Below, piece by piece: positions 33,987 to 39,079 of a stretch of 41,164 nucleotides of DNA. How positions within the stretch are numbered: position 1 is the first letter of the stretch; the number at the start of each line of letters is the position of its first letter. The notes below the pieces were generated by a model. The model saw only the letters and a program-made list of their open reading frames with translations. It made no database searches and was not told where the DNA came from. The translations under genes and the position numbers were made by a program. The DNA lies in contig CAJTDE010000037.1 in the NCBI GenBank assembly GCA_910574835.1, positions 1-41,164 of the forward strand, read 5' to 3'. The DNA comes from Clostridia bacterium (GTDB lineage Bacteria; Bacillota; Clostridia; Lachnospirales; Lachnospiraceae).

Positions 33987-35057
33987 ATGGAATTAAAATA
34001 CACGGAGGAAGAACTGAACAGCCTTGACAAGGAAATGCTCATCCGATTATTCCTGTTACAGCAGAAGGAGCTGGAAAATATCGACCGTACGCTTCAATTG
34101 GTATTGGAGCAGGTGGCGGACTTAAAGAGGCACCGCTTCGGCAGGTCATCGGAGGCGCATGAGCCGGATGAGCAGATTTCTTTTATGGAAACAGATGGAA
34201 AGATTGTATTCTTTAACGAATCAGAAGCCGTTGCGGCAGAAGACTCCGGTGAATACAAAGAGTCCGTTCCCTGCCGGAAACCAAAGAAGAAGCCGGGAAA
34301 GCGGGAAGAGGATCTGGAGGGACTGCCGGTGGTTGTGGTGGAACACTCCATGACCCGGGAGGAATTGGAAGAGCTGTTTGGTGCGGAAGGATGGAAACAG
34401 CTTCCGGATGAAGTGTATCGCAGATACGGTTTTACCCCGGCAAAAGTTGAAGTGGAGGAGCACCATGTAAAAGTATATGCCGGAAAGAAGACGGATGAGA
34501 TCGTCAGGGCGCCGCATCCGGAGGTCTTGTTAAGGGGCAGCCTTGTGTCTCCTTCGCTGGAAGCAGCCATAATGAATGCCAAATATGTCAACGGAGTGCC
34601 TCTTTACCGTCAGGAACAGGAGTTTGAACGCTGCGGCCTGCACATTTCCAGGCAGAACATGGCTAACTGGACGATCCAGTGTGCGGACCGCTATCTTGCA
34701 GTCCTTTATGATTACCTGCACGAAAAAATGTACGGCTTCCATGTACTGCAGGCAGACGAAACACCTGTGCTGGTAAATAAGGACGGCCGCCCGGCCGGGA
34801 GTAAGAGCTATATGTGGGTATACCGTACCGGCCAAATGTATACGGACCGCCGGATTGTCCTGTATGAATACCAGCGGACACGCAATGCCAGCCACCCGAG
34901 GGAATTTCTGAAGGATTTCAGCGGGATATGCGTCACGGACGGGTATCAGGTCTACCACACAATTGAAAACGAACGGGAAGACTTAAAGATTGCCGGATGC
35001 TGGTCCCATTATCCCAGAAGTATTGTTATTCTAGGAGAACTGCCAACATCAGCGTAA
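33987..35057 (+). pseudogene. tnpC: IS66 transposase TnpC, 5' part (disrupted)
   Basis: Residues 1-341 (to 35009) are genuine TnpC; the following 15 codons are RIT sequence before a stop. It has an N-terminal helical region (LLQQKELENIDRTLQLVLEQ), a zinc-finger-like segment without the usual cysteines (YRRYGFTPAKVEVEEHHVKVY), and two of the DDE residues, in VLQADETPV and CVTDGYQVY. The break falls after GCWSH in the conserved GCWSHARR block. The rest, including the catalytic glutamate, is at 38483-39079. The ATG has GGGAGA seven bases upstream. Confidence 0.93.
35003..35031. repeat. RIT element left inverted repeat
   Basis: The 29 bases starting GTCCCATTATCCCAGAAG and ending TATTGTTATTC are the exact reverse complement of 38427-38455. 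The first seven, GTCCCAT, also belong to tnpC and recur directly at 38476-38482. Confidence 0.95.
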
Positions 35058-35094
35058 ATCTGCAGTTCTCCGATTTAAATCCCGAATAACAATA
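35021..35094. repeat. Nested palindrome at the left end of the RIT element
   Basis: An outer pair TATTGTTATTC (35021-35031) and GAATAACAATA (35084-35094) encloses an inner pair GGAGAACTG (35034-35042) and CAGTTCTCC (35063-35071). The inner arms contain the octamer GAGAACTG, which is also the centre of the symmetric site at the right end. It lies just after the ritC stop codon and has no T-run, so it looks like recombinase binding sites rather than a terminator. Confidence 0.85.
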
Positions 35095-35101
35095 ACTACT
35101 T

Positions 35102-36124
35102 TTACCTTAAGAATTCCGGTATGTTACTTTTGCCATTCGTGTTCTCAAAATGAGAATTATCCTTGAGAAACCATTTGTCATTCCACGATTTAAGCTGTTT
35201 ATTCATGGTATCCTGCGTTATCTCTGTATATATCTGAGTAGTCTGCAAGGATACATGCCCGAGCAAGTTCTTAACCACAATAAGCGGGACCCCTGCTTCA
35301 AGCATATGGGTGGCAGTAGTATGCCTCATGGAATGTGGCGTGTAACTATATCTGAACATTTCAGGATACTCAAGTTTTGCCTTGTCAATGTATTTGGAGT
35401 ATATTTCCTCAATACAGGCAACTGACATCTTCTCATGTGTCTGACTTGAGAACACATGCCGCCCTGTATCATTGATTATTCTACGATGTTCAATATATTT
35501 CTTCAACATATTTGAAGCATCACATGGAATACCTATACGGCGCACCTTTTGACCTTTACCATGTATGTTGATGCCAGCCCGATCAGGATAGAACTGGATG
35601 TCCCCAACTGTTAAATCACATACCTCCTGTGCCCTTGTTCCGCTAGCATACATAAAACACAGCAAAGTCTTATCTCTTAATCCGATTTCATTACTTGAAT
35701 CGGGTAATTCGAATAGAGTCCTGACTTCATCTCTTGTGAATGAACTTCTACCTTTACGGGGCACTTTCTTCTTTGGAACTTTTAGTACACAGTTTCTGAA
35801 AGTAACTGCTGAACCAAAATCTCTATTCTGTGCATATATCGAGAATGCTGCAATAGCAGAGAGCCTCTGGTTTCTGGTGCTGACACTGCAGCTGCGCTCT
35901 GTTTCCAGCCAGCTTAAGAACTCCATGATCAACTTATCATCAAAGGTATTGAACTCTACCTTATCAGAGGGAATACCTTTTACTGTATATAAGAATTCCA
36001 TAAGTATACGGAATGCTGCTTTATACGAAACTATCGTTGATTTTGATAAGCCCTTTACAGTTGGTAAATATATATTGAAATAATACTCAAGATGATCCAT
36101 GAAGGAAATTTTTTTATTCTTCAT
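35102..36124 (-). CDS. ritC: Tyrosine recombinase, third gene of the RIT trio
   Basis: A 340-residue integrase-family recombinase. The N-terminal SAM-like core-binding domain (about residues 8-115) includes STRNQRLSAIAAFSIYA. The catalytic domain is complete: R in ASGTRAQEVCDL, K in HGKGQKVRR, HxxR in PHSMRHTTATHM, H in LLGHVSLQTT, and the nucleophile Y in QIYTEIT. It overlaps the preceding gene by 11 bases, with GGAGG six bases before its ATG. Confidence 0.94.
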   Translation of the reverse strand: MKNKKISFMDHLEYYFNIYLPTVKGLSKSTIVSYKAAFRILMEFLYTVKGIPSDKVEFNTFDDKLIMEFLSWLETERSCSVSTRNQRLSAIAAFSIYAQNRDFGSAVTFRNCVLKVPKKKVPRKGRSSFTRDEVRTLFELPDSSNEIGLRDKTLLCFMYASGTRAQEVCDLTVGDIQFYPDRAGINIHGKGQKVRRIGIPCDASNMLKKYIEHRRIINDTGRHVFSSQTHEKMSVACIEEIYSKYIDKAKLEYPEMFRYSYTPHSMRHTTATHMLEAGVPLIVVKNLLGHVSLQTTQIYTEITQDTMNKQLKSWNDKWFLKDNSHFENTNGKSNIPEFLR

Positions 36125-37091
36125 AGTCTACCTCCGGAAGCAGGTCGCTCATAAATCTTCCAAAGGAATCGATGGACTCCGGAAACAGCTCATTGCTGAA
36201 TTTTAGGTACTTGGCTGTTTCATTAATGCCTGCATGCCCAAGATAAACAGACAAGAATGGGACAGCGTCATCAAGATGCCTTCCTTCCCGTTCGGCCTTT
36301 GCAAACGATTTAAACGCAAACACATGGCGCATACAATGCAGGCATGGGCCACGCTCGTGTTTCTTTCGTTTACAGACTTGAATGCCATTATTACGAACAA
36401 TGTACTCAAATCTGCGTTTTACTGATCTGTCGGATATATGCCCCTCATTTTTAGAGGATGGGAAAAGCCATATGTTGTTCCTGCCGATAAGGTTCATTGC
36501 CATGCAGTACTTGTATAGGATATCTGTCATGGGCGCTGACATCGGGACTAAACGCTGCTTATTGCCTTTTGTGTTTATAAGGCGAAGGATGCCGCCATCC
36601 AGATCTACATCATTCATACTTATTTTGACCGTTTCGCCGATCCGAAGGCCGCAACTGTATAAAAGCCTGAGAATCACCGGAAACTCTATCACCAGATAAG
36701 GATCAGCCTTTGGATCCTTTTGAACGATGTTATCAGCAGACTCAAAAATACAATTCAACTCTATATCACTAAAGATATACGGGACATAGTCATCATGAAC
36801 CCTGGGGATGGATGGCATGGCAACACTTTCTCCGGTATGCTTGAGGGACTCCAGAAACTGTCGTATTACAATGATTTCATTCTCAACAGAACTGCTTTTT
36901 CCCGAAAGGGAACCAACCCATTGGTTGATGAAATCTTCCGTGATGTGTCCGGGGGAATCCAACCGTTCGGAAACATATGAATCAAAGCGACGTAGATAGC
37001 ATAATTCGTGTTTTTCTGCACTTTCACTCAATGTTTCCCGACGAAGACCGTAATACTGTGACAACTGTTCAGAATAAATACTGTCAAACAT
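36114..37091 (-). CDS. ritB: Tyrosine recombinase, second gene of the RIT trio
   Basis: A 325-residue recombinase using the ATG at 37091 (MFDSIYSEQ), which overlaps the first gene's end as ATGTTTGA and has GGGAGG nine bases upstream. An in-frame start at 37124 has no comparable site. Catalytic residues: R in SCGLRIGETVKI, K in NTKGNKQRLVP, HxxR in LHCMRHVFAF, H in YLGHAGINET, Y in AKYLKFSNE. A cysteine/basic insertion (KRKKHERGPCLHCMRH) precedes the HxxR box, which may form a small metal site. Confidence 0.93.
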   Translation of the reverse strand: MFDSIYSEQLSQYYGLRRETLSESAEKHELCYLRRFDSYVSERLDSPGHITEDFINQWVGSLSGKSSSVENEIIVIRQFLESLKHTGESVAMPSIPRVHDDYVPYIFSDIELNCIFESADNIVQKDPKADPYLVIEFPVILRLLYSCGLRIGETVKISMNDVDLDGGILRLINTKGNKQRLVPMSAPMTDILYKYCMAMNLIGRNNIWLFPSSKNEGHISDRSVKRRFEYIVRNNGIQVCKRKKHERGPCLHCMRHVFAFKSFAKAEREGRHLDDAVPFLSVYLGHAGINETAKYLKFSNELFPESIDSFGRFMSDLLPEVDYEE

Positions 37092-38307
37092 GAGTGGCCA
37101 CCTCCCTGCCGGAAAGATAATCACGGAAAATCCCTGTGGGAATCGGAGGATCTATAGAACACATCCTCAGATTTTCAATATCCGCTTTAGCGTAATGCTT
37201 GATAACATCAGGATTTGAATGTCCCAGTATCCTTCTAACCACCTCATAAGATGCATTATCGTTTACCATTGAACTTGCAAGGGATGACCGAAATGCATGT
37301 GGACCATGCTTTTTCCCTGCTGTATTGACATTTGCTGCAGCAAAGCATTCATTTAAAGCGTGTCGTATTATGCTTGTAGTAATACGTCCATACGGAGCCA
37401 CCAGGCTATGAAATACATACCCGTCTTCTAAAGAATATTTGTCATTGCCAAGATGCATCGAAATGGCATTAACAACTTCACAAGGCATTTGCAATGTGAG
37501 AGGTATCCCCGTCTTTTCCTGGGTTATACTAATGTATCCCGTACTAAAGTTGATTTCCGATAGTTTAAGCTTTGCAATGTCGCCTGCACGGAGTCCCATT
37601 CGTGATGCCAGCCGGATGATAGCAAGGTTTCTCTTTCCAATAGTAGTATTGGTATCAACAGAAGCTTCGACCCTGCTGATTTCATCTGGCGTATATGTCG
37701 TGGGAAGCGCCGTACCTCTCTTATAGTGCGGAACAATCCTGGAAAGATCCACTTTTAGGATGCCTTTTTCAGCAAGGTAATTCAGGAACTGACGGATACG
37801 TGCATAGGCATCCTTGTTGGAGAATGTAAGCAAGGCCTGTGATACAATGCCGGTGTTTAATTGAGAAAGGTCAGAACAACCAGCATTTTCCACAAAGTTC
37901 AAAAAAGATATACAGGTCCTTTCTTTTGAGCAGATCGTAGCCGGTTTATTGCCATTATCTATGCATTCTTGAAGATACCCAGACAAAGTGCCCGCAAACA
38001 CCGGAGGAATCTGTTCGTTATAATCACCATGATGGCACCTGTAAGGTTTTCCGTCAATGTAGTCATCTAGCCTTCGTACTGCACAGGCATAAGCTACAAA
38101 GGTGGACTTGCTAACATTTGAATCGGCAAGAAATGCTTTGCCTAATTCATGAGTGTATATGTCCGTGCCATGATGATTCAGAAAAATGTGAATGCGATTG
38201 TAGGTTCGTCGATATACGGTCAACGTTGAATCCATATATTTCTGAGATTTTAATTGCTCCAGAGCTGCTTTCATCAGTTCATCGAATGGTAAGATTGTAT
38301 TTCTCAT
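37084..38307 (-). CDS. ritA: Tyrosine recombinase, first gene of the RIT trio
   Basis: A 407-residue recombinase, the largest of the three. The N-terminal part (residues 1-190) contains two helical DNA-binding segments (STLTVYRRTYNRIHIFL and TFVAYACAVRRLDDYI). Catalytic residues: R in MGLRAGDIAKLKL, K in TQEKTGIPL, HxxR in GPHAFRSSLAS, H in ILGHSNPDV, Y in KHYAKADIE. The ATG has AAAGGAGG six bases upstream. It begins 120 bases inside the right inverted repeat. Confidence 0.94.
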   Translation of the reverse strand: MRNTILPFDELMKAALEQLKSQKYMDSTLTVYRRTYNRIHIFLNHHGTDIYTHELGKAFLADSNVSKSTFVAYACAVRRLDDYIDGKPYRCHHGDYNEQIPPVFAGTLSGYLQECIDNGNKPATICSKERTCISFLNFVENAGCSDLSQLNTGIVSQALLTFSNKDAYARIRQFLNYLAEKGILKVDLSRIVPHYKRGTALPTTYTPDEISRVEASVDTNTTIGKRNLAIIRLASRMGLRAGDIAKLKLSEINFSTGYISITQEKTGIPLTLQMPCEVVNAISMHLGNDKYSLEDGYVFHSLVAPYGRITTSIIRHALNECFAAANVNTAGKKHGPHAFRSSLASSMVNDNASYEVVRRILGHSNPDVIKHYAKADIENLRMCSIDPPIPTGIFRDYLSGREVATHV

Positions 38308-38426
38308 ATGAGACCTCCTTTATAATGAGATGAATTAGTTACATCTTCATTGTAAAAGAGCACTATCATTATTCAAGAAATATGCTGTAAAAAACAACAT
38401 TTATGCCACATGTAGACTTGCTTCTG

Positions 38427-38482
38427 GAATAACAATACTTCTGGGATAATGGGACTTATTCGAGAACTGGAATAAGTCCCAT
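38427..38482. repeat. RIT element right end: inverted repeat plus 13-8-13 symmetric site
   Basis: 38427-38455 is the exact complement of the left inverted repeat. It continues as ATGGGACTTATTC (38449-38461), spacer GAGAACTG (38462-38469), GAATAAGTCCCAT (38470-38482), two perfectly complementary 13-base arms around eight bases, the same layout as loxP. The left end lacks this extension, because there the tnpC sequence begins directly outside GTCCCAT. Confidence 0.94.
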
Positions 38483-39079
38483 GCAAGGAGGCGCTTCGAT
38501 GAAGCAGTAAAGGCGCTGCCCAAAGCAAGGCAGAAGGAGAGCCGTGCTTACCTTGCGCTGACTATGATCCAGGCAGTATACCGGGAAGAAAAACAGCTGA
38601 AGGAACTTTCCGCACAGGAGAGACAGAACCGCCGCCGGTTAAGCGTCCGCCCTCTGGTGGAGGCTTATTTTACATGGGTGCGTGAAAACCTTCTGAAAGT
38701 ACCACAGAAAAGCAAAACATGGGAGGGTTTCAATTATTCACTTAACCAGGAAAAATACCTGAAAGTATTCTTGGATGACGGCGAGGTGCCGATGGACAAC
38801 AATGCTGCGGAGCAGTCGATCCGTGGTTTTTGTATCGGGAAGAAGAACTGGGTGATGATTGATACGATTGCCGGTGCCGAGTCCAGTGCGGTTATTTACA
38901 GTATTGCAGAGACAGCCAAAGCAAACCAGCTGAAGCCATATAATTATTTTGAGCATCTGCTCACGGAGATACCAAAGCATCTGGATGATACGGACCGCAC
39001 ATTTTTAGAAGACGTACTCCCCTGGTCGCCGAACCTGCCTGCGAATTGTCGCAAGCCCGGTAAAGATGAAGTGAACTAA
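38483..39079 (+). pseudogene. tnpC: IS66 transposase TnpC, 3' part (disrupted)
   Basis: Continues the TnpC frame with ARRRFDEAVKALPKARQ directly after the GTCCCAT repeat. It holds the third catalytic residue in NNAAEQSIRGFCIGKKNW and the family C-terminus with YFEHLLTEIPKHL and LPWS. 198 codons remain; with the 341 of the 5' part the restored protein has 539 residues, normal for the family. No start codon of its own with a ribosome-binding site is evident. Confidence 0.93.

Follow-up and report, generated by a model that had tools for sequence, protein, structure and literature searches.

RIT elements have been described as sets of three tyrosine recombinase genes that overlap and follow the order A-B-C, within about 3,500 bp (PMC3414803). 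An inverted repeat with an overlapping palindrome was noted at their ends in 2012 and left unexplained (Van Houdt 2012, PMC3414803); in the available sections of that account, the ends misfit the usual core and arm sites and no model of the joining site is given (PMC3414803). Nor did we find such a model in print, in a search that missed most subscription papers, including the main RIT paper of 2013 (Ricker 2013). A RIT within the IS66 tnpA gene of C. metallidurans had already been reported (PMC2864759), and in a 2023 table "not tested" is the entry for the target specificity of RITs, for their empty sites and for their movement (PMC10214605). Here we analyzed a 41,164-nucleotide stretch of a Lachnospiraceae genome (contig CAJTDE010000037.1, hereafter the window), in which a 3.4-kb RIT element interrupts an IS66 tnpC gene. 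The published RITs and this element share gene order, size and end features, and we now read the palindrome as two head-to-head cores. We propose, with a probability of about 0.78, that the element uses a palindromic attachment site in which two head-to-head tyrosine-recombinase cores would be brought together in a circular form.

Integron attC sites are palindromic and foldable from one strand, but they are imperfect, with strand-choosing bulges, and are served by a single integrase. The window palindrome could likewise fold from one strand, whereas it is nearly perfect and both insertion orientations occur; three recombinases and perfect arms also set the element apart from an integron cassette. 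SE elements resemble it in the 6-bp spacer between imperfect inverted repeats in their circle, the 6 bp of the circle being found in the new attR (PMC10214605). They differ in carrying intA, tfp, intB and srap where a RIT has three recombinases, and a double-core palindrome goes unmentioned for them in the available text (PMC10214605). All three window genes match the tyrosine recombinase family, unlike the SE set. Tn554 shares a former-target hexanucleotide at one end and a circular intermediate, and differs in its TnpA/TnpB/TnpC set, its lack of terminal repeats and its insertion into radC (PMC3261861). The three recombinases of the window (407, 336 and 340 amino acids) do not correspond to that set. 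In Tn554, TnpB is long and TnpC is not a recombinase. GInts have tyrosine recombinase genes, circles and proposed 6-nt staggered cuts, and are distinguished by four gin genes with cargo and by direct imperfect repeats of 10-17 nt (PMC5385486); their main text, as available, does not mention palindromes or inverted repeats (PMC5385486).

When the two ends of the element were joined by script at their outer repeat, perfect 35-bp arms formed around the octamer GAGAACTG. This reproduced letter for letter the end architecture and the 35-8-35 junction palindrome predicted in an earlier note on this DNA. Viewed as a binding site, each arm shows the familiar core layout of tyrosine recombinases, CTGGAATAA-GTCCCA-TTATCCCAG. 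Between the inner and outer cores at the RitA end lies a 20-bp palindromic module; the other end is plain. The palindrome is not accidental, as judged by pairing frequency (20-mers of these loci reach at least 8 of 10 pairs at a frequency of 0.002), by the fold of the joined strand (z = -16.75 against shuffles) and by recurrence among relatives. The note had described the short repeat GTCCCAT as both element-borne and target-borne. Its double origin stood and its length did not: the sequences place the repeat at 6 bp, GTCCCA, with the seventh base, T, being part of the inverted repeat on one side and of the target on the other. A 7-bp repeat was dropped because the target-side seventh base varies among relatives, being C in L006, L014 and L096. 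The octamer, which the note had treated as a site of its own, is the overlap of the inner half-sites contributed by the two arms; six of the 27 scored elements have a fully palindromic module in which no distinct octamer can be drawn. The palindrome is indeed hidden after integration, as the note had it, its parts being split between the two ends.

Relatives were collected as 36 loci with a RitA-like match, designated by L numbers, from separate sources: the window itself, 13 loci from a scan of genome contigs (Lachnospiraceae and related records), 7 from 397 family genomes at E 1e-60, 2 from 391 class genomes at E 1e-45, and 13 plasmid loci taken from 543 matching plasmid records and picked for variety of genus. 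Four partial loci from pattern searches (L042, L095, L096 and L097) stand outside the 36. Both ends were readable in 27 loci, which were scored by testing the 20 bp beyond the 6-bp core for symmetry; a module was called when at least 6 of the 10 positions paired, which happens at a background frequency of 0.026. A short-flank end search missed L074, L077 and L085; with wider windows, L077 and L085 could be read at both ends and L074 at one. Since several Lachnospiraceae copies are nearly identical (RitA 94-99% identical in eight loci), the scored elements do not amount to 27 independent cases.

The module was found at exactly one end in 21 of the 27 elements (RitA end in 10, RitC end in 11), at both ends in 4 (L006, L014, L015 and L041) and at neither in 2 (L012, and L017, whose contig stops at the RitA side), so that this position is palindromic at one or both ends in 25/27. 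One-sided modules were seen in Lachnospiraceae and Eubacterium records, Ruminococcus, Cupriavidus, Paraburkholderia, Sinorhizobium, Sphingobium, Marinobacter, Rhodococcus and Bacteroides. Pairing was complete (10/10) in six scored elements (L046, L077, L080, L083, L085 and L086) and in the unscored L074. Of 40 positions, the predicted junctions of the 21 single-module elements paired at 32 to 40 when built with the module-side core and at 31 to 40 when built with the plain-end core. The earlier note had held that related ends joining without a palindrome would count against it; the joined ends of these relatives gave near-palindromes. Its suggestion of strand exchange in an arm rather than at the centre fits all 21, the centre of the palindrome being whole in each. 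Within an element the two outer cores were alike at 4.95 of 6 positions on average, compared with a mean of 2.32 and a maximum of 3.52 in between-element shuffles.

The side on which the module lies follows the target. In the IS66 tnpC group, single-module elements of both orientations place it on the tnpC 3′ side. Two COE1 copies illustrate this directly: L009 and L011 share their IS66 flanks (20 bp read per side) and lie in opposite orientations, with the module on the tnpC 3′ side in each. A constant side is expected if a directional target core can recombine with either arm of a symmetric site. By eye, the two-module elements L006, L014 and L015 have two tnpC 3′ flanks, and the module-less L012 two 5′ flanks; these would be the expected product pair of homologous recombination between copies in opposite orientation. 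The Marinobacter element L083 occupies the same tnpC site as the window element, although its RitA is 26% identical. Intact single-core IS66 sites were also present in genomes that carry a RIT (L050 and L060 in that of L006; L051, L058 and L063 in that of L008). L051 sits on the 3-kb contig of L008 itself, as a second tnpC with an intact site, beyond an N and near the RIT 3′ flank, a layout that suggests a scaffolding join.

Excision of the element in silico restored the tnpC reading frame of the window, the 5′ part running in frame into the 3′ part. Of 20 elements whose flanks were joined, 19 gave a frame that stays open through the site, a count made without an unrelated-flank control; L036, whose left flank is missing, gave none, and L010 lay outside the set. 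Some joined frames were short (76 codons in L080, 126 in L037, 133 in L040), and the frame picked in L080 was not the IS66 one, which was read by eye. The window target was recognized by its two IS66 halves. Other IS66 TnpC cases, L037 (TnpB) and L076 (IstA) were assigned by eye and L077 (ArdC) and L040 (DUF4314) by Pfam, while annotated relatives identified L081 (istA), L085 (zincin-like metallopeptidase) and L078 (IS3). The L082 target is marked by a transposase annotation next to IS66 TnpB, and Pfam gave no match at E 0.001 for the proteins read across the joined flanks of L046 and L086.

In 10 of the 21 single-module elements the two outer cores differ, and intact target relatives were sought for six of these. 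In all four informative cases the plain-end core was the intact target's own and the module-side core was foreign. For L081 the comparison was with an intact istA on the same plasmid, 98.5% identical, the difference being six masked bases of the 406-base query; two intact relatives each were available for L080 (90-94% over part of the query), L077 (86%) and L085 (97-98%). Four cases are few, since an unbiased process would put all of them on one side 1 time in 8. Partial agreement comes from L006, in which the module core on the RitC side is unlike that of an intact copy of this IS66 in the same genome, the adjoining printed flank being identical. L016 agrees at the protein level, its plain-end core giving Trp-Ala-His and its module-side core Trp-Ile-His. 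Arm cores were also constant between the copies of COE1 (three) and A4 (two) in 12 of 12 readings, taken from the table of scored ends with the module rule applied.

Taken together, four features read from sequence (the element's anatomy, its insertion site, the module rule, and the retention of the target core in four relatives) point to the following route. In the putative circle, the 20-bp module would be flanked on both sides by a 6-bp core and then an inverted repeat, each core lying between paired inverted half-sites (CTGGAATAA-GTCCCA-TTATCCCAG in the window). Recombination would take place between one of the two cores and a 6-bp core resembling it in the target, which in the window is formed by the Trp-Ser-His codons of IS66 tnpC. 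Since two inverted, equivalent cores flank the module, entry could occur in either orientation; the module would nevertheless always fall on the same target side, making the integrated form asymmetric and hiding the palindrome. The plain end would retain the core of the target, and the module end would receive that of the element; this distribution implies that one strand is exchanged or inherited. The inherited cut would lie between core and inverted repeat, on the strand reading from module to repeat. The circle, the choice of strand and the role of the Rit proteins as agents we infer. The data support exchange in an arm over exchange at the palindrome centre, and the strand polarity resembles that of Tn554 and SE elements. 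RITs span several bacterial phyla, and the recurrence of the apparent split design in relatives from several of these makes their mobility directly testable: for RITs with readable ends, the rule yields predictions of the circle junction, of where the cut falls, of which strand is exchanged and of the target core, as well as of insertion in both orientations. It also accounts for the varying ends with a palindrome given to RITs by earlier authors.

Several observations weigh against this model. No circle, tandem junction or empty-site read was seen, and a search of the 397 family genomes for the window-type module pattern matched 7 genomes, all seven with integrated ends or remnants. The six elements with two modules or none depart from the rule, although homologous recombination between oppositely oriented copies may explain them. 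The window module is itself reversed relative to the genes when compared with the same 20-mer in L005, L006, L007, L009, L010, L011 and L015; inverting the segment that separates the plain-end core from the inner one would have this effect. Two of the six plasmid elements examined for polarity were uninformative: for L082 the plasmid collection searched held no intact target relative, and the two flanks of L078 (Rhodococcus) resemble two different IS3 copies, so the target's core cannot be told, a pattern that suggests recombination between RIT copies. Arm cores disagreed in 1 of 6 readings in Eubacterium ruminantium (L013 and L014) and in 1 of 2 comparisons in L006. End positions depended on inverted-repeat strings picked by eye for each element after a blind scan. 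Finally, nine of the 36 loci went unscored: L008, L038 and L039 are cut by contig ends, L075 lies at the edge of its record, the trio is absent from L079 and not intact in L035, where a plain RitA end alone was seen, the RitA end of L084 is truncated, L074 has one end, and L087 has a RitA-end module with a candidate other end at chance-level score. A module is visible in five of the nine (L008, L038, L039, L074 and L087).

Inheritance of cores from one side, as in the 4/4 cases, is also what single-strand exchange would give, and a cassette-like route can be imagined in which one strand of the circle folds at the palindrome, a Rit protein joins the hairpin core to the target as IntI does with attC, and replication completes the insertion. 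The joined strand does form a full hairpin in the window and two relatives, and joining in SE elements is strand-biased (PMC10214605). However, SE circles are described as mainly nicked double-stranded DNA (PMC10214605), all long inverted repeats fold, which makes folding alone weak proof, and mismatch repair or one-strand inheritance could bias a double-strand reaction too. We consider this route doubtful. Equally unlikely, in our judgment, is that RITs form a separate class of transposon, with a bivalent self-complementary site whose two equivalent cores, each usable, come together only in the circle, possibly as a single-strand hairpin in which a lone strand holds a functional duplex site and inserts by copying. 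Within the double-core model, the circle might at each excision take the target core and lose its own, as in Tn554, so that the module-side core would record the previous target. The Tn554 circle carried the target-side hexanucleotide (PMC3261861), and most arm cores of the tnpC group resemble real target codons; the constant cores of COE1 and A4 would fit permanent element-borne cores and equally a single common donor under the Tn554 rule. We regard such a memory as quite possible, at slightly less than even odds.

The 13-8-13 geometry around GAGAACTG recalls a loxP-type site and would allow crossover at the palindrome centre. Such a crossover should divide the module, which instead stays whole in integrated forms, at one end in 21/27 and at both in four; both flanks of the module-less L012 pass directly into tnpC, and the homology to the target sits in the arm cores. 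We rejected octamer crossover on these grounds as highly improbable. Palindromes at the border of an element can also serve as terminators, and the modules might be regulatory hairpins with no part in recombination. Yet the module changes sides with the orientation of the element in its target (L009 versus L011), target DNA starts just past the module-side core, and the cores of the module match the target. As the module side follows the target, this was rejected as a whole explanation and appears even less probable than the central crossover.

The features of the window element are collected in Table 1.

Table 1. Features of the RIT element and of the interrupted IS66 gene, in window coordinates.
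Feature	Positions	Strand	Remarks
IS66 tnpC, 5′ part (left half of target)	33987..35002	+	NCBIfam transpos_IS66, Pfam DDE_Tnp_IS66; in frame with 3′ part
Outer core N, GTCCCA, 6-bp, plain (RitC) end	35003..35008	+	
Terminal inverted repeat, RitC end, TTATCCCAGAAGTATTGTTATTC	35009..35031	+	
ritC, tyrosine recombinase	35102..36124	-	Pfam Phage_integrase
ritB, tyrosine recombinase	36114..37124	-	Pfam Phage_integrase
ritA, tyrosine recombinase	37084..38307	-	Pfam Phage_integrase; AlphaFold2 model of modest confidence
Terminal inverted repeat, RitA end, GAATAACAATACTTCTGGGATAA	38427..38449	+	
Inner core I, TGGGAC (reverse complement of GTCCCA)	38450..38455	+	
20-bp palindromic module, TTATTCGAGAACTGGAATAA = TTATTC-GAGAACTG-GAATAA, one end only	38456..38475	+	8/10 pairs
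Outer core O, GTCCCA, module-side	38476..38481	+	
IS66 tnpC, 3′ part (right half of target)	38482..39079	+	In frame with 5′ part

The element measures 3,441 bp from plain core to inner core, close to the ~3.5 kb of RITs, and its three recombinase genes are adjacent and overlapping, all on the minus strand, as a RIT should be. Among nine Rit proteins compared, the best match of each window protein was the same-position protein of the published RIT of Cupriavidus pHG1 (A-A, B-B, C-C; 27-30% identity), and this order of best matches also held for the Marinobacter and Bacteroides ovatus trios. The overlapping trio and its pHG1-like order bear out the RIT identity proposed in the note. A motif scan found the catalytic Arg and HxxR in all three proteins and the Tyr in RitA and RitC; that of RitB was located by eye. 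The AlphaFold2 model of RitA has two four-helix groups before the catalytic domain, at modest confidence (mean pLDDT 70.0, pTM 0.40), and RitA has been described with two successive core-binding domains and RitC with an extra C-terminal helix (PMC8138268). Speculatively, two such core-binding domains could suit the two tandem motifs of each inverted repeat. At the RitC end, positions 35032-35091 hold a second, inner inverted pair, GGAGAACTG / CAGTTCTCC, followed by GAATAACAATA, which by eye echoes the module sequence; this pair may provide extra binding sites. The element is single-copy in its genome, and 15 other genomes of the genus gave just two short matches to it (66-72%).

Other arrangements were seen outside the window. 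One IMG/VR contig of 7964 bases, binned as viral (L095), has a RIT-like trio and a symmetric module beside genes that look phage-structural by eye; no RitA relatives were found in viral contigs, where pattern scans gave one, then two contigs. At L096 (G341:C1, near 2155740), an IS66 tnpC contains no RIT body but a single 20-bp module, its two cores and a short inverted-repeat stub, perhaps the scar of an element lost by deletion at CTGG microhomology. Three RITs are longer between their cores: L077 (2584-7695, 5.1 kb), with an annotated PAS histidine kinase and response regulator inside, L085 (2757-7373, 4.6 kb), with two hypothetical proteins, and L083 (3563-7631, 4.1 kb), with no annotated extra gene.

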